From positions 682,001 through 746,000 of the forward strand of contig NZ_CP051131.1 in assembly GCF_013378075.1 (NCBI RefSeq): a stretch of 64,000 nt of DNA. The letters run 5' to 3'. A program made the position numbers and the translations under genes. This stretch comes from Parasphingopyxis algicola (GTDB lineage: Bacteria; Pseudomonadota; Alphaproteobacteria; Sphingomonadales; Sphingomonadaceae). Numbering within the stretch: the stretch's first letter is position 1; each line of letters opens with the position of its first letter. The notes beneath the pieces were generated by a model. It had not been told where the DNA came from and searched no databases. It saw only the letters and a list, made by a program, of their open reading frames with translations. Positions 7,021 through 16,040 of the stretch are shown here, piece by piece.

Positions 7021-7784
7021 AGGTTCGCATTCTCGGCTGCGGCACCTCGTCGGGCGTTCCGAAGATCGGCAATGACTGGGGCGCCTGCGACCCGGACGAA
7101 CCGAAAAACCGGCGGATGCGCTCTTCGATCCTCGTTTCCGCCGACAATCATAACATCCTTGTCGATACCGGACCGGATCTGCGCCAGCAGATGCTCGAGG
7201 CAAAGGTCAAACGGGTGGATCATGTTATCTGGACGCATGAGCATGCCGATCATTGCCATGGTATCGACGAACTCCGGCAGCTCTATTTCGCGCTGGGCGG
7301 ACCGATACCCTGCCTTGCGCGGCCGCGCACCTTGCGGGAGCTGCAGCAGCGTTTCGATTTCGCATTTCGCGGCAACGGCCCCTATCCGTCCTATGCGCAG
7401 GGCCTGGCGCTGACCGACCGGGTAATGCTGGGCAGCGTAACGGTCACCGCGGCGGACATGCCGCACGGCACGATCACCTCGGCCGCCCTGCGCTTCGATC
7501 ATGGCGGCAAGAGCATCGCCTATACGACCGATTTCACCGGGCTGCCGGCCAAGGCCTTCGAGTGCGTCGAGGGTGTCGATGTCTGGGTCGTCGACGCGTT
7601 GCGCCGCCGCGAGCATCCGACGCACCCGCATCTCGCGCAAACGCTCGAATGGATTGACAAAGCCCGGCCGAAACGCGCGATACTGACGCATATGGACCAT
7701 TCGATGGATTACGCGACGCTCTGCGCCGAACTGCCGCCCGGCGTCGAGCCCGGCTATGACGGGATGGAGGTGGATTTCGGATGA
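7017..7784 (+). CDS. MBL-fold metallohydrolase (PhnP-like phosphodiesterase family)
   Basis: This is a beta-lactamase-fold hydrolase of 255 aa, probably cytoplasmic. It begins KVRILGCGTSSGVPKIG, the signature of the PhnP/YcbX-like branch. The zinc motif HEHADHCHG is at about residues 76-84, and further metal ligands follow (ADMPHG, YTTDFTG, LTHMDH). PhnP itself is a cyclic ribose phosphodiesterase, but no phosphonate genes are nearby here. Its start overlaps tatD by four bases and its end overlaps the aspartic protease gene by four, so it belongs to the same transcription unit. The specific substrate is unknown. Confidence 0.9.
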   Translation: MKVRILGCGTSSGVPKIGNDWGACDPDEPKNRRMRSSILVSADNHNILVDTGPDLRQQMLEAKVKRVDHVIWTHEHADHCHGIDELRQLYFALGGPIPCLARPRTLRELQQRFDFAFRGNGPYPSYAQGLALTDRVMLGSVTVTAADMPHGTITSAALRFDHGGKSIAYTTDFTGLPAKAFECVEGVDVWVVDALRRREHPTHPHLAQTLEWIDKARPKRAILTHMDHSMDYATLCAELPPGVEPGYDGMEVDFG

Positions 7785-8374
7785 GCGACGGGCAGGGCAT
7801 CAGTCTCGTCTGGGCGGTCATCATGCTGGTGATCGTCGTCAGCGCGCTGGCCAGTCGGCGGATTCCGTTGGGGCAGGCGGCAAAAATGGCCGTGGCCTGG
7901 ATCGCGATCTTTGCAATCGGCCTCACCATCTACGCTTTTCGCAACGATATCAAGGCGTTCGGACAGAGAATCTGGTACGAAATCGACCCGCCTGAAACGG
8001 TGGCGGACGGAGAAGCGCTGCGGATCCGCAAATCGCCCGACGGCCATTTTTGGGTGGACGTACGGATCAACGGCAATGAAGAGCGCTTCCTGATCGACAG
8101 CGGCGCGACGGTGACGGCGCTATCCGTCGGCGCCGCGACGCGGTCCGGCGTCGAACCCGGTGGCGGCTTCCCGATGATCCTGAATACCGCCAATGGCGCG
8201 ATTTCCGCCGATCGGGCGAGGGCCGAAACGCTGATCGTGGGGACGATCCGCCGCGACGACATGCCGGTCGTGATCGCGGAAGAATTTGGCGGCACCAACG
8301 TCCTAGGCATGAACTTTCTTTCGTCTTTGTCCAGCTGGAGCGTCCAAGGGGACTGGCTCGTCCTCGAGCCGTGA
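7781..8374 (+). CDS. Membrane-anchored retropepsin-like aspartic protease (TIGR02281 type)
   Basis: This 197-aa protein has two predicted membrane segments at about residues 7-24 and 36-53, followed by a periplasmic or cytosolic retropepsin-like domain. The catalytic motif is LIDSGATVTAL, with Asp106. A single Asp motif means it must dimerise to be active, as in retroviral proteases. Small clan AA proteases of this type are widespread in alphaproteobacteria, and their substrates are largely unknown. It is the last gene of the metG-tatD-MBL run; a good rho-independent terminator follows 8 bases after its stop. Confidence 0.87.
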   Translation: MSDGQGISLVWAVIMLVIVVSALASRRIPLGQAAKMAVAWIAIFAIGLTIYAFRNDIKAFGQRIWYEIDPPETVADGEALRIRKSPDGHFWVDVRINGNEERFLIDSGATVTALSVGAATRSGVEPGGGFPMILNTANGAISADRARAETLIVGTIRRDDMPVVIAEEFGGTNVLGMNFLSSLSSWSVQGDWLVLEP

Positions 8375-8493: not shown

Positions 8494-9288
8494 ATGGACG
8501 TGACATGCCCCTCTCGGCCGGATGACCATCTCGGCGACCGGATTTCGCGGCTCGCGACGATCATGGAGCGCTTACGCGATCCGAAAACCGGTTGTCCCTG
8601 GGATGTCGAACAGGATTTCACCTCGATCGCACCGTACACGATCGAGGAAGCCTATGAGGTTGCCGATGCGATCGAGCGCGACGACATGGCGGCGCTCAAG
8701 GACGAACTCGGCGACCTGCAACTGCAGGTCGTGTTCCACGCCCGCATGGCCGAGGAAGCCGGTCATTTCGCGCTGTCCGACGTGCTCGACGGCATTTCCG
8801 ACAAGATGATCCGCCGGCACCCGCATGTATTCGGTCCGGAAGCGGACAATGGCGATGCAGGTCCGGGCTGGGAGGCCATCAAGGAGGCGGAGCGGGCGGA
8901 AAAGGGCGGACATAGTACGCTGGATGGGGTTGCGACCGCACTTCCCGCGCTATTGCGCGCCGAAAAACTCCAGAAGCGGGCAGCGCGTGCCGGATTCGAC
9001 TGGCCGGATGCGACCGGTCCAAGGGCCAAGATCGAGGAAGAAATTTCCGAAGTGGAATGTGCCAAGAACGACACGCAACGCACTGAAGAGATTGGAGATT
9101 TACTATTCGCGGTCGTCAACTGGGCGCGCCATCTCAAAATCGACCCGGAAGCCGCGCTGCGGGCCGCGAACGCCAAGTTCGAGCGGCGTTTCAGAACCAT
9201 GGAAGAACGCGCTGGCGCCGGCTTTTCCGGGCTTTCGCTCGACGAGATGGAACGGCTTTGGGCGGCCGCGAAGCGTGAAGAAGCCTAG
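8494..9288 (+). CDS. mazG: Nucleoside triphosphate pyrophosphohydrolase
   Basis: MazG hydrolyses NTPs and dNTPs to monophosphates and pyrophosphate, clearing abnormal nucleotides and modulating stress alarmones. The 264-aa protein has the tandem all-alpha NTP-PPase layout. Domain one carries GCPWD, then EEAYEVADAI and DELGDLQLQVVFHA, which are the acidic metal-binding helices. Domain two has KIEEEISEVE and EEIGDLLFAVVNWARH. Length and both acidic motif sets are typical. It is monocistronic, and its stop overlaps the convergent hflX stop by four bases. Confidence 0.95.
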   Translation: MDVTCPSRPDDHLGDRISRLATIMERLRDPKTGCPWDVEQDFTSIAPYTIEEAYEVADAIERDDMAALKDELGDLQLQVVFHARMAEEAGHFALSDVLDGISDKMIRRHPHVFGPEADNGDAGPGWEAIKEAERAEKGGHSTLDGVATALPALLRAEKLQKRAARAGFDWPDATGPRAKIEEEISEVECAKNDTQRTEEIGDLLFAVVNWARHLKIDPEAALRAANAKFERRFRTMEERAGAGFSGLSLDEMERLWAAAKREEA

Positions 9289-10595
9289 CCGGCCTCTACC
9301 CGGTCCTGAAAACGGTCCCAATCGATCGCCGAGAGTTTTACCGAAACATGCATGATATCGCCGTCAACATGTTGATCCAGAACGCTTCCGTTGCGGTGAA
9401 GCCAGGCGAGATTTTCGCCATCGGACAGCTGAAGCCGCACATCGTGCACGGCACGACCGCGATCGAGCCGTTCGGCGATCAGGAGGCGCAGACCCTCGAT
9501 CCCCTCCCCGGTCAACGCCGAGACCGCGACCACGTCGGCACGGCGATCGGCGGCGTTGCACAACTGTTCGCGCGCCGCATCCTCGAGCGCGTCGATCTTG
9601 TTCCACGCCTCGATCAGCGGGGCACTCCCCTCCCCGTCGATCGCGTCGATCTCCTTCAGCACCGTCTCGACATCGGCGCTCTGCGCGTCGCTGTCGGGAT
9701 GCGAAACGTCGCGCACATGGACGATGAGATCCGCCGCATTGACCTCCTCCAGAGTGGCGCGGAACGCGGCGACCAACTGGGTCGGCAGATCCGACACGAA
9801 GCCGACCGTGTCGGACAGGATCGCCTTGTCGAGGCCGGGTAATGTTATCTCGCGCATCGTCGGATCGAGCGTGGCGAACAGCAAATCCGCCGCCATGACG
9901 TCACCGCCCGTCATCCTGTTGAAAAGCGTCGATTTTCCGGCATTCGTATAGCCGACGAGCGCGATGACCGGCCACGGCGCCTTCTGCCGGCGGGCCCGGT
10001 GCAGGCTGCGCGTCCGCCGCACCTGTTCGAGTTCGCGGCGCAGTTTCGCCATCCGGTCGCGGATCATGCGCCTGTCAGCCTCGATCTGGGTCTCGCCCGG
10101 ACCGCCGAGAAAACCGAAACCGCCGCGCTGCCGTTCCAGGTGGGTCCAGCTCCTGACAAGCCGCCCGGCCTGATAGTCGAGATGCGCGAGTTCGACCTGC
10201 AAACGCCCTTCCGCGGTCGCCGCGCGCTCGCCGAATATTTCGAGGATCAGCCCCGTTCGATCAATGACCTTGATCTTGAGTTCATCTTCGAGGTTCTTTT
10301 GCTGAACGGGCGTCAGGGCCGCGTCGACAATGGCGAGATCGGCTGCGGCAAGCCGCGTTTCCACGGCGAGGCTTTCCACCTGTCCCTTGCCGAACAGCGT
10401 GGCCGGCCGCGCCTGGCGCAGTTTGACCGCGCGTTTCTCGGCGACCTCGATGCCGATCGCCTCCGCCAGCCCCGCCGCCTCTTCGAGCCGCGCATCGCTG
10501 TCGCGGCTGTCCTCGCGCCCGAAATCGGGAAAGACGATCAGCGCGCGGTCACCGCGCCTCAGGCCGTCAAGTTCGTCGCGGTCGAAAACGCTCAA
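9285..10595 (-). CDS. hflX: GTPase HflX
   Basis: HflX is a ribosome-associated GTPase that rescues or splits stalled 70S ribosomes, mainly in stress. An N-terminal HflX domain (about residues 25-180, with ATLFGKGQVE and ERQRGGFGFLGGPGE) precedes a G domain with GYTNAGKSTLF (G1), DTVGFVSDLP (G3) and NKIDA (G4). I chose the TTG at 10595, 10 bases after the hfq stop, because it gives LSVFDRDEL directly at the family start. In-frame ATGs at 10649 and 10676 would overlap hfq. It is the last gene of the dusB-ntrY-ntrX-hfq-hflX block. Confidence 0.93.
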   Translation of the reverse strand: MSVFDRDELDGLRRGDRALIVFPDFGREDSRDSDARLEEAAGLAEAIGIEVAEKRAVKLRQARPATLFGKGQVESLAVETRLAAADLAIVDAALTPVQQKNLEDELKIKVIDRTGLILEIFGERAATAEGRLQVELAHLDYQAGRLVRSWTHLERQRGGFGFLGGPGETQIEADRRMIRDRMAKLRRELEQVRRTRSLHRARRQKAPWPVIALVGYTNAGKSTLFNRMTGGDVMAADLLFATLDPTMREITLPGLDKAILSDTVGFVSDLPTQLVAAFRATLEEVNAADLIVHVRDVSHPDSDAQSADVETVLKEIDAIDGEGSAPLIEAWNKIDALEDAAREQLCNAADRRADVVAVSALTGEGIEGLRLLIAERLDRGRAVHDVRLQLSDGENLAWLHRNGSVLDQHVDGDIMHVSVKLSAIDWDRFQDRVEAG

Positions 10596-10605
10596 AGCCG
10601 AAGAC

Positions 10606-11091
10606 TCAGGATGGCGCGTCTGGATCGGCGCTGCCGAGATCGATCGCATTGGCGGGCTGGATCGTCGAAATCGCATGTTTGTAGACCAGCTGCGACTGGC
10701 CGTCGCGGTTCAGCAGCAGGCAGAACAAGTCGAACGCGGCCACTTCGCCCTGCAGCATTACCCCGTTGACGAGAAACATCGTCACCGGATCGCGCTCGCG
10801 CTTGACGGCATTGAGGAAGATTTCCTGCAGCAGCTTGCCGCGTTTTTCTTCCGCGAAGGCCTCCTCGATCTCCGTCATATCCATCGGCCCGCCGGGCATG
10901 ATGGTCGAGATCGCGTGTTTATAGACGAGTTGCGACTGGCCATCGCGGCGCAGCAGCACCGAGAAGTTGTCAAACCAGGTGATGACGCCCTGGAGCTTCA
11001 CGCCCTTCACGAGAAACATCGTGACCGGCGTTTTGCTTTTACGCAGCGTGTTGAGAAACAGATCCTGAAGTATATTGACCTTTTCAGCCAT
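10606..11091 (-). CDS. hfq: RNA chaperone Hfq with two tandem Hfq (Sm-like) domains
   Basis: Hfq binds small RNAs and mRNAs and promotes their pairing. The usual protein has about 80-100 residues with one Sm fold, but this 161-aa product holds two complete copies. Copy one, at about residues 6-70, runs from NILQDLFLN to [10 protein letters not shown]. Copy two, at about 88-150, runs from KLLQEIFLN to [11 protein letters not shown] short acidic linker ([15 protein letters not shown]) joins them. Each copy keeps the proximal-face motif YKHAIST. The rim patch differs: copy one has LRKSK and copy two has VKRER, closer to the arginine-rich rim of enteric Hfq. The ATG at 11091 has a GGAGG six bases upstream. 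It lies between ntrX and hflX. Confidence 0.95.
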
Positions 11092-11209
11092 TTTCGGCCT
11101 CCGGTTCTTGGCGGGTCGTGGCCCGCTGGGCATCGTTTTTCGACGTCTGTTCGACAAGGCGGCGACCCGCCTCTTTCCGAAATGTAGGTGGGGCGATGCC
11201 CGACTTCAA

Positions 11210-12591
<1,382 letters not shown>

Positions 12592-12592
<1 letters not shown>

Positions 12593-14859
12593 CAGGATGC
12601 CTCCTCATCGTTACGCGTTAACTGAAACAGGCGATCTTCACCCTCGGTATCGCCGGACATCGAGTCCTTGAGCGGCGCCAGCGCCTCGACGTCGAACGCG
12701 ACACGCACCCGCGTACCGCCTTCCTTGCGATCGGAAAATGTGACCGTGCCGAAATGCTCCTCGACGATCTTCTTGACGATCGCGAGGCCCAGGCCAGTCC
12801 CGCTTTCCCGGGTGGTCATATAGGGCTCGGTGAGCCGTTCGCGCTCCGCCGGCAAGCCGACACCATTATCCTCGACATCGACGATGATCCGTCCGTCAGC
12901 CTCCGAAACGCTCAGCCTGACCAGTCCGCCGGGCTCGCCTTCGCCATGCTTCTGTTCGACGGCCTCGACGGCGTTCTTGACCACATTGGTCAGGGCCTGG
13001 CCCAGCTGCCGGCGGTCGCAGACCAGCGGCGGGAGCTCTTCGCCGACTTGCTGTTCGAATGCGATCTCGGGATGCGCGACTTCATGCAGGAAGACGGCCT
13101 GGCGTGCGATATCGACGATCGATTCCTCCCGGAAAACGGGTTTCGGCATGCGCGCGAAAGAGGAGAATTCGTCGACCATCCGCCGGAGATCGCCGACCTG
13201 ACGGACAATGGTTCCCGTCAGCTTGGCGAAAACGCCGCTATCGGGGTCGGCGGCATCGCCGAACCGTCGCTGCAGCCGTTCGGCCGCCAGTTGGATCGGC
13301 GTCAGCGGATTCTTGATCTCATGGGCGATGCGCCGGGCGACGTCCGACCAGGCCGCTCGCCGCTGATCGAGCAACTGCTGGGTGATATCGTCGAAGGTCA
13401 GAACGTGGCCGCCCTGATCCTCGACCAGGGTGACCGCCAGCGTGCGCGGCTCGCCGCCGCTCGTCATCTGGATGATCTTCTCGCTGTCGCGGCCGTCGAG
13501 CAGCCGGTCGAGTTCCGGCGCTATGTCCTTCAGGCACTTCGCCATGACCGCATGCTGCTCCACTTCCATGAGTTCGGCGGCCGAACGATTGATCAGACGA
13601 ACCCGCCGTTCGCTGTCGACCGAGACCACGCCTGCGGTCACGCTCGACAAAACCGCTTCGATAAAGGCGCGGCGGCTGTCGAGCTGGTCGTTGGCGAGCA
13701 CCAGCGCGCCGGTCTGTTCCTCGAGCCGGCCGGTCATCCCGTTGAACGCGCTGGCCAAAGTGCCGATCTCGTCATGGGCGCCCGCTTCAGGCACCCGCGT
13801 CGAGAGATCGCCATCGGCCACTTTGCGGGCCGCCTGGACCAAAGCGCCGACGGGCCTGACAAGTCGGTCCGCCACCGTCAGTGCAATCCAGATTGCGGCC
13901 GCCACAATCAGCAGCGAAATGACGAGCAACGCAACGTTGAACCGCAACTGCATCACCTGGCCGCGATCGATCAGTTCGTCATAATCGTTGAGGATCGCCT
14001 GGGCACGTTCGGTCTGCAATTGCATCTGCGGATCCGACGCCCGCGACGCGTAAATCAGATAAGGGGAATCATCGCCGAACCGGGCAAGGGCCTCGAACCG
14101 GTCGCCGGCATCGTTGACCGCCGACTGGCGTTCGGCATCGAGCGTCGCGAGCAGCGATGCCGTCAGCCGCGATTCCATCGAGCTGTTGTCGGGATTGACG
14201 AGCGCGACGGTCCGCACATCGCCTCCCTCACCTACCGTGAATATCGCCGCATCGGATAGTTCGCGCGCATAAACCTGAAAGGCGAAATTCTGTACGAATT
14301 CAGGCGATTCGAACGACGATCCCTCGACCAGAGGTGCAAGGTCCGCCGCCATGGTTCGCGTCTCCGCCTCCACCTCCTCCAGGCTTTCGAGATAGAAATC
14401 CTGGGCAAGGCTGCCAGCGTTCTCGAGCGTGTCGCGCGCGCGCTCCGAAAACCAGAATTCCACGCCATATTGGAACAGCAACGATGCGAAAATCACGACC
14501 AGCAAGGTCGGCACCGCAGCGATGCCGGAGAACAGTGCGACAAGGCGGACGTGCAGCCGCCCCTTGCCGCCGATCGGCGAGCGCGCGGCGCGGCGCTGGG
14601 CTATTCGCCGCGCGATCAGCACCATCAGGAACATCGCCGGGACGAGGAGCGCCACCAACAATGAAGCCGTCAGGAACGGGGTGAGGAACAGTTCGTCCGA
14701 GCCCTGGCGCGTTACGATGAAATAGCTGAGCGCGACCATGGAGAGGAACACGCCGAGCGCGACGAGCTCGATAGACGGCATGAACCAGCTCTTGTGGCGC
14801 AGCCCGTCCAAGCCGCCGTCGCCGCCTGCCAATTCCCCGGAAACCGCCTCGGTCGTCAT
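12592..14859 (-). CDS. ntrY: Nitrogen-regulation sensor histidine kinase NtrY
   Basis: NtrY is the membrane sensor kinase for NtrX. From the chosen ATG (MTTEAVSGEL) it is 755 aa. It has three hydrophobic segments near the N-terminus, a periplasmic region, another membrane segment (FNVALLVISLLIVAAAIWIAL), a HAMP domain (DRLVRPVGAL...DEIGTLASAFNGM), a PAS domain, a HisKA box IAHEIKNPLTPIQ with the phospho-accepting His, and a full HATPase domain (NVVKNAVEAVE, VEDNGVGLP, GTGLGLAIVKKI). An upstream in-frame start at 14925 adds 22 unlikely residues. dusB lies upstream with no ntrBC between. Confidence 0.94.
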
Positions 14860-14970
14860 CGTTGCACGGCTAACACAGTCCCGTTGCATAGAAAACACAG
14901 TTTTCCAGACATACGGGCGTTCCATGACGCTCGCATCGGGCGGTCCGTCGCAAAATCGACAGTGCGGCGA

Positions 14971-15969
14971 TCAAGCCGCGGCGCGTTCGAGCGCGGGCCC
15001 GAAAAAGTCGGCCAGCATCTGCAGCACCTGTTCGGGATCGTCTTCCTGATTGGCGCGGTTCCGGAATTCGGCCGATCCCGGAAGGCCCCTGGTGTACCAA
15101 CCGATATGCTTGCGAGCGACCTTCACCCCGACATCGCCACCATAATGATCGAGCATATCGCGATAATGGGCGGCGATGACGCGATACTGTTCATCGAGCG
15201 ACGGATCGGTACGCCGCTCGCCGGTCGCAAACCAGTGCATGATCTGGCTGAGCAGCCAGGGTTTCCCATAGGCTCCGCGGCCAACCATGACACCGTCGGC
15301 GCCCGACTGACGCAACGCCTCCTCGGCATCTTCGATCGAGCAGATATCGCCGTTGACGATGACCGGCAGCGACACCGCCTGCTTGACCTCCGACACAAAG
15401 GCCCAATCGGCATGACCTTTGTACATCTGGCAGCGCGTCCGGCCGTGCACGGTGATCAGCTGCGCGCCGAGATCCTCGGCGATCCGCGCGAGTTCCGGCG
15501 CATTGCGGCTGGAATCGTCCCATCCCGTCCGCATCTTCACGGTCACGGGCACCTGGACCGCCTTCACCGTCGCCTCGATCAATGAGGCGGCCAGCGGCAA
15601 ATCGCGCATCAGCGCCGATCCCGCATCGCCATTGACGACCTTCTTGACCGGACAGCCCATGTTGATGTCGATAATCGCTGCGCCGCGATCCTCGTTGAGG
15701 CGCGCGGCATCTGCCATCACATCGGGCTCGCAGCCGGCGAGCTGCATCGACACCGGCTCCTCGATCGGATCCCAGGCCGCTTTTTGCAGCGACTGGCGCG
15801 TTTCGCGGACCATCGCATGGCTCGCGATCATCTCGGTGACGTTGAGGCCCGAGCCGTAGCGGCGGACGAGCCGACGGAACGGCCGGTCGGTGACGCCCGT
15901 CATCGGCGCCAGGACTACCGGCGTTTCGATCGTCAGCGGACCGATGGAGATGGGGGCAAGCGTTGTCAT
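14971..15969 (-). CDS. dusB: tRNA-dihydrouridine synthase B
   Basis: DusB reduces specific uridines in the tRNA D-loop to dihydrouridine using FMN and NADPH. The TIM-barrel protein has APMTGVTDRPFRRL near the start, the DINMGCPVKKV motif with the catalytic Cys, TVHGRTRCQMYKG, and GADGVMVGRGAYGKPW for phosphate binding. The start is probably MTTLAPISIG at 15969; ATG at 15972 or 16020 are alternatives. In many alphaproteobacteria this gene (old name nifR3) heads a nifR3-ntrB-ntrC-ntrY-ntrX operon; here it leads directly to ntrY. Confidence 0.94.
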   Translation of the reverse strand: MTTLAPISIGPLTIETPVVLAPMTGVTDRPFRRLVRRYGSGLNVTEMIASHAMVRETRQSLQKAAWDPIEEPVSMQLAGCEPDVMADAARLNEDRGAAIIDINMGCPVKKVVNGDAGSALMRDLPLAASLIEATVKAVQVPVTVKMRTGWDDSSRNAPELARIAEDLGAQLITVHGRTRCQMYKGHADWAFVSEVKQAVSLPVIVNGDICSIEDAEEALRQSGADGVMVGRGAYGKPWLLSQIMHWFATGERRTDPSLDEQYRVIAAHYRDMLDHYGGDVGVKVARKHIGWYTRGLPGSAEFRNRANQEDDPEQVLQMLADFFGPALERAAA

Positions 15970-16040
15970 CATGCGTTTCGTTTCTGGCGCGCATCTAGTG
16001 ATAAAGGCGTTGGCGGGCAAGCCGGGGCTCGGCTAAGGCG

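Follow-up and report, generated by a model that had tools for sequence, protein, structure and literature searches.

How does an Hfq that carries two Sm domains in one chain assemble, and what might each domain contribute to RNA binding? The question is raised by a gene in a stretch of 64,000 nucleotides from Parasphingopyxis algicola (contig NZ_CP051131.1, positions 682,001 to 746,000; the whole stretch is termed the window herein). A first-pass annotation had described two complete Hfq units in a single chain of 161 amino acids (aa), each with its own YKHAIST motif, and this is borne out by the translation and by profile PF17209, which matches two stretches of the protein (195 bits in total, cut-off of 27).

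The hfq locus and its precedents

The hfq frame, for which the first-pass annotation gave no strand, lies on the minus strand and runs from an ATG (11091-11089) to a TGA (10608-10606) with no internal stops. The protein also matches NF010691 (PRK14091.1, "RNA chaperone Hfq"), an NCBIfam equivalog of 176 positions that models the tandem form, with 294 bits against a cut-off of 270 (aa 1 to 155 on positions 16 to 170); the match indicates the same architecture and tells nothing about how the two halves differ. The N and C domains are 66% identical to each other (59 columns), and the N domain resembles single-domain alphaproteobacterial Hfq, with Lys replacing Asn at position 28 (Escherichia coli numbering is used throughout). 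The genome (one contig, 3.67 Mb) contains one PF17209 gene, the tandem hfq, and any Hfq ring must therefore consist of the tandem chain.

Table 1. Features of the hfq locus, in window coordinates
Feature	Coordinates	Strand	Basis
hfq, tandem two-domain Hfq, 161 aa (stop included)	10606..11091	-	Translation; PF17209 twice; NF010691
GGAGG, likely ribosome-binding site of hfq	11098..11102	-	Read from sequence; six bases between GGAGG and ATG
N-terminal Sm domain, aa 7-66, helix and five strands	10894..11073	-	AlphaFold2 secondary structure; residue tables
Codon of N-domain position 28 (aa 29, K)	11005..11007	-	K in 129/129 N domains; N in 62/62 single-domain genomes
Linker, aa 67-88, 22 aa, net charge -3; short predicted helix at aa 73-78	10828..10893	-	Alignment; AlphaFold2
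C-terminal Sm domain, aa 89-146 (helix from aa 88), diverged: M31, A38, L41, Q63	10654..10827	-	Residue tables; AlphaFold2
Codon of C-domain position 31 (aa 112, M)	10756..10758	-	M in 129/129 C domains; K in 62/62 single-domain genomes
Codon of C-domain position 41 (aa 122, L)	10726..10728	-	L in 125/129 C domains; N in 129/129 N domains
C-terminal tail, aa 147-161, mostly low confidence	10609..10653	-	Mean pLDDT 68 (aa 151-160) and 48 (aa 161)
hflX, directly downstream of hfq	9285..10595	-	GTPase and HflX_C Pfam domains
ntrX response regulator, directly upstream of hfq	11210..12592	-	Pfam domains

The genes ntrY, ntrX, hfq, and hflX follow each other in this order on one strand, and mazG faces hflX. 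By our reading, hflX starts at a TTG (10595-10593); the listed open reading frame opens at an ATG at 10676, within hfq. The gene dusB lies directly upstream of ntrY with no gene in between (window 12592-16020, minus strand); in other alphaproteobacteria, ntrB and ntrC stand at the place upstream of ntrY. The plus strand encodes, at 7781-8374, a protein of 197 aa whose aspartyl protease domain is retropepsin-like (gag type) and for which we read an N-terminal membrane segment as likely.

The tandem architecture and the three-chain idea are already known (PMC2877685; NF010691). The available text of PMC2877685 (2010) describes two Sm-like domains in the one chain of Zymomonas mobilis Hfq (ZMO0347), like the window protein, and likewise in six other Sphingomonadales species, and raises as a structural question whether three proteins would suffice for a ring. 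The Z. mobilis locus in our set (L090) is tandem, and its best segment shares 69% identity with the window protein. Two hfq-like genes were counted in Novosphingobium aromaticivorans by an older survey, as cited in the available part of PMC3474761, and this is perhaps the same tandem arrangement. The parts available of PMC10725011, PMC9797736, PMC5770649, and PMC13414033 add nothing on tandem Hfq, and among the papers cited here PMC2877685 is the one that mentions an Hfq with two domains.

AlphaFold2, given 80 tandem sequences, predicted two Sm folds and a short linker helix with a mean pLDDT of 90.4 and a pTM of 0.85, a value that for a two-domain chain of 161 aa suggests a defined arrangement of the domains. 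In a Foldseek search with the model, the best 50 of 1,185 matches were all Hfq chains, each covering one domain. The top match, Hfq of Caulobacter crescentus (6gwk; root mean square deviation of 0.7 Å over 65 columns), is also the nearest solved structure by sequence (N domain), with a shared alphaproteobacterial core. Unlike the two-domain window Hfq, it is a single-domain protein that forms a hexamer of identical subunits and carries N28, K31, and N41; its short tail, which occupies the place of the linker after the first domain of the tandem, packs against the basic rim with its acidic tip (PMC6561178, from the available text). None of the PDB sequences listed as matches (35 and 36) is a solved tandem Hfq, since the longest has 114 aa.

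Distribution and origin of the tandem gene

How widespread the tandem form is was determined with NF010691 in 396 Sphingomonadales genomes, 313 from the family of the window (Sphingomonadaceae, taken broadly by our reading of its named members) and 83 from seven other families. Matches were found in 390 of the 396 genomes, 265 of them above the cut-off; 4 of 14 control genomes matched, none above it. Single-domain Hfqs scored no better than about E 2e-44, and proteins with E 1e-77 or better, present in 273 of the 313 family genomes, were taken as tandem. A recheck of 43 family genomes with PF17209 (the 40 lower scorers and 3 of the 273) gave two matches in the same open frame in 30 and one match in 13, which brings the family total to 300 tandem and 13 single-domain genomes among the 313 sampled. 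The mention of duplicated Hfq in "a few sphingomonads" in the first-pass annotation thus understated its spread. In the seven other families, the score-based count, which a tandem too unlike NF010691 would escape, was 0 of 83 (77 with a single-domain-like score and 6 without a match). A PF17209 recheck of 15 of these genomes gave one full match in 13 and none in 2; G001 has a further partial match on another contig, and the match of G014 is itself partial. In overlapping samples of the class and the phylum, 4 of 289 and 12 of 299 genomes, respectively, scored above the NF010691 cut-off, all of them from the family of the window. One record titled Bacillus sp. 2B10 (RPSH01000011.1, our locus L072) encodes a tandem Hfq that is 74% identical to the window protein; it is probably a mislabeled or contaminated assembly.

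The chromosomal neighborhood ntrX-hfq-hflX is common to the window tandem and its single-domain relatives: among 12 single-domain family genes inspected within stretches of roughly 7 kb, all 12 have ntrX in the stretch and 11 have hflX. Because both genes also lie beside single-domain hfq within the family, the duplication most simply occurred in place. Outside the family, ntrX adjoins hfq in one locus (L215), as it does in the family of the window, and three loci of other families (L216, L218, and L219) have partial ntrX-like matches about 3 kb from hfq, at the edges of the stretches.

When the duplication took place was approached through an unrooted tree of concatenated HflX and NtrX with 57 rows (37 tandem, 12 single-domain family, and 8 other-family). 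Nine rows fill under half of the columns, including 7 of the 8 other-family rows and Zymomonas. All tandem rows lie on one side of a branch with an SH-aLRT support of 99 (quick method), which corresponds to one change of state. A first concatenated tree also grouped the tandem set as one clade; its support label of 61, read after rerooting, is not relied on here. One single-domain row (L201, genome G053) falls among the long-branched other-family rows in both flanking-gene trees, a position on which nothing is built here. As the tandem genomes form one clade, the simplest history is that hfq was duplicated once, in place, in an ancestor shared by most of the family. The named tandem rows comprise Zymomonas, Sphingopyxis, Sphingorhabdus, Altererythrobacter, Qipengyuania, Sphingobium, and Sphingomonas, which places the duplication before the split of these genera. 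Independent duplications, or reversion in the single-domain relatives, are not needed with the tandems in one clade. The 13 single-domain family members all carry N28 and K31, like the outgroup Hfqs.

Divergence of the two domains

To see where the halves differ, we aligned 173 tandem loci from a set of 200, from which L198 (no Hfq) and L002 and L033 (further copies of the window gene) had been left out. Twenty-four of the 173 were dropped as identical domain pairs and 20 pairs from one genus (g13) were counted apart, leaving 129 distinct domain pairs as the main set; this set is biased, with L003 to L032 being the best NF010691 scorers and L041 to L120 the nearest to the window protein. The single-domain comparison comprises 62 genomes (13 + 11 + 40, less the duplicates G541 and G407), 40 of which were picked by hand among the class and phylum matches listed.

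The RNA-binding core is shared by both domains. Q8, F25, V30, L32, Q33, Q52, Y55, K56, H57, T61, and P64 are kept in 129 of 129 pairs in both domains, F42 in 129 N and 128 C domains, and G29 in 128 N and 129 C domains. These residues include the uridine pocket (Q8, F42, K56, and H57), of which position 41 is changed in the C domain, and the distal A-site residues L32, Q33, Q52, and T61. In E. coli numbering, Q8, K56, and position 41 touch the base in the proximal pocket and H57 the ribose, while on the distal face the first A site is made up of Q52, Q33, and L32, and the second is contacted by T61 and, through a water molecule, by N28 (PMC10628458, from the available text).

Around this core, the halves differ in a consistent and reciprocal manner. 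Position 28 is Lys in every N domain and Asn in every C domain, and position 31 is Lys in every N domain and Met in every C domain (129/129 each). All 62 single-domain genomes have N28 and K31 without exception, so K28 is a change in the N half and M31 a change in the C half. Further contrasts between the N and the C domains are found at position 63 (Met in 127 versus Gln in 129), position 43 (Ser in 129 versus Cys in 126), position 38 (Trp in 129 versus Ala in 114), and loop residue 46i, which we map to R49 of Caulobacter (Arg in 129 versus Glu in 75, Gln in 35, and Arg in 13). In 34 pairs taken from L161 to L200, mostly one per genus, K28 and M31 are present in all 34 and L41 in 31. The most conserved contrasts are thus those at 28, 31, 63, and 41, and not, as the first-pass annotation had it, those at the rim and at position 9; the latter (QD versus QE) is not fixed, as the C domain has Glu in 75 and Asp in 54 of the 129 pairs.

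The rim contrast drawn in that annotation (LRKSK versus VKRER) holds across the family and is weak in the window genome itself, where both rims are basic. Basic residues occupy all three of positions 16, 17, and 19 in every one of the 129 N domains and in 10 of the 129 C domains; over rim helix 16-20, the net charge averages +2.93 in N and +0.35 in C domains. The C domain of the window is one of the ten (K16, R17, and R19, but E18 and D20; net charge of +1, versus +3 in the N domain), so the contrast describes the family more than this genome; the C-domain rim helix of Z. mobilis L090 has no basic residue at the three positions where the window has three. R16, R17, and R19 form the arginine patch, and more rim arginines give faster annealing (PMC10628458, available text). 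According to the available part of a preprint (PMC12262471), the R16A mutation nearly abolishes sRNA-mRNA chimeras and K31A lowers them almost 4-fold; K31A is mild in E. coli reporter assays (same preprint; likewise the available text of PMC5348863), so the distal difference between the domains may matter little.

No description of the differences at 28, 31, and 41 was found in the literature searched, as far as its text was available; as that literature included few subscription papers, the absence carries little weight. That the halves have diverged consistently and reciprocally on their RNA-binding faces nevertheless looks undescribed.

Both domains are under strong purifying selection. In comparison with two genes of the same genus, the N domain gave dN/dS values of 0.016 and 0.025, the C domain of 0.000 and 0.011, and the linker of 0.26 and 0.11. 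The second half is maintained though faster evolving: within the 34 pairs, C domains are on average 79% and N domains 90% identical to each other, and the mean identity to single-domain family Hfqs is 81% for N and 62% for C. The corresponding mean patristic distances are 0.52 and 1.54, from a 63-column domain tree that is too short to root and was used for distances only. The faster rate of the C domain, and its strong divergence in part of genus g13, speak for a neutral leftover. That reading, taken together with the one in which the tandem is a sequencing or assembly artefact, is nonetheless highly improbable given the 300 tandem genomes, the dN/dS of the C domain, and the presence of N28, M31, and Q63 in 129 of 129 C domains. 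An artefact, including the frameshift or missed stop between the copies that the first-pass annotation had named among the things that would overturn it, is excluded by the open frame, the family count, and the selection on both domains, and the gene is a genuine in-frame tandem.

Genus g13 contains short, strongly diverged tandem Hfqs of 134 to 143 aa as read (L141, L146 to L149, L151, L155 to L157, and L159, the last without a start codon found). Of its 20 pairs, a quarter have Gln in place of H57 in the N domain, and 45% retain Q33 in the C domain; the two domains persist, with K28 in 100% of N domains and N28 in 95% of C domains.

The linker, taken as the stretch between the equivalent of P64, where the first core ends, and Q8 of the next core, measures 21 to 24 aa in 125 of the 129 distinct pairs, and its net charge ranges from -3 to +2 and is negative in 54. 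Its length is conserved across tandem Hfqs and its acidity is not; an acidic linker of 15 to 20 residues, as first annotated, is thus right in charge for the window protein, wrong in length, and not a family trait. An ATG in the linker of 53 of the 129 pairs would allow an internal start that yields free C domains and hence mixed assemblies. We give this very little credence, as a start codon preceded by an SD-like stretch occurs in 2 of 129 linkers, although the test is blunt: the real start scores 55 of 129, with loci lacking enough upstream sequence or a recognized start counted as misses.

Probable assembly of the tandem chain and its possible meaning for RNA binding

Tandem Hfq very probably works as an sRNA chaperone, by analogy with two systems known from the available text of the papers cited. 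In Sphingopyxis granuli, the sRNA SuhB acts on thnR mRNA in an Hfq-dependent manner (PMC6563040); the eight Sphingopyxis loci in our set (L107, L109, L110, L111, L113, L114, L117, and L120) are all tandem, the gene of the S. granuli strain not being among them. In Z. mobilis, Hfq is needed for stress tolerance, and an hfq mutant shows sensitivity to several inhibitors, which complementation reversed in part (PMC2877685).

We consider it likely that the only Hfq of this genome is an ordinary sRNA/mRNA-annealing chaperone in tandem form, three chains of which assemble into an alternating six-domain ring; such a pseudohexamer, which the first-pass annotation had also considered, is the most natural assembly of the chain. 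Three chains would close into one ring in which N and C domains alternate, each keeping the core of the uridine pocket (Q8, F42, Y55, K56, and H57) and of the distal A site (G29, V30, L32, Q33, Q52, and T61). The N domain would supply the full basic rim and N41, and the C domain usually a weaker rim and Leu41. The distal lysines would be redistributed, with K28 and K31 in the N and N28 and M31 in the C domain in place of the N28 and K31 of single-domain Hfq. Only an alternating ring would have strong rims at three positions, weaker ones at the other three, and its six distal lysines shifted to alternate subunits. A point against this reading as a whole is genus g13, which has lost several constraints and still has two domains.

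Eukaryotic Sm and Lsm heteroheptamers are built from seven subunits encoded by separate genes. They are rings of nonidentical Sm folds (PMC2877685, available text), as a ring of tandem Hfq would be; unlike them, the latter would place two domain types from one chain at six positions.

Two assemblies of six chains have to be weighed against the three-chain ring. In the first, the N domains alone form an ordinary hexamer, and the C domains lie outside the ring as folded units in place of the usual disordered acidic tail. The N domain is indeed the one near ordinary Hfq, both in identity over the 34 pairs and in the domain tree, and it is the C domain whose rim and position 41 are altered. Such an arrangement is unlikely to be the right one, however, as the C domain keeps Q8, Y55, K56, and H57 as well as L32, Q33, Q52, and T61 in all 129 pairs, is under purifying selection as strong as that on the N domain, and has acquired domain-specific fixed changes rather than decayed, and as the length of the linker is tightly kept. 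In the second, an all-N hexamer is stacked on an all-C hexamer, with six linkers joining twelve domains. Each domain could in principle self-associate and a 22-residue linker could span the faces, but stacking would hide one RNA-binding face per ring, and each domain retains the core residues of the two faces; we regard it as improbable.

The functional meaning of the asymmetry between N and C domains can be proposed from the residues themselves. Within the preferred three-chain ring, it is possible, though we hold it only tentatively, that the asymmetry is obligate, the N domains bearing a strong rim and the K28/K31 patch and the C domains a mostly weak rim, N28 and M31, and mostly Leu41. If so, the six distal lysines per ring would be kept in number and moved to alternate positions, RNA would be read with a two-subunit period, and the ring would have about half the strong annealing sites. 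The family would then possess a natural heteromeric Hfq in which the roles of single subunits would be genetically separable; its two fused subunits have diverged at residues that in E. coli Hfq are known to belong to the RNA-binding faces. In rings of identical subunits, mutating only some positions in the living cell is not easy; in an alternating ring, one point mutation would change rim, pocket, or distal residues at half of the positions. How many functional rims or faces a ring needs would thereby become testable in tractable hosts such as Zymomonas mobilis and Novosphingobium.
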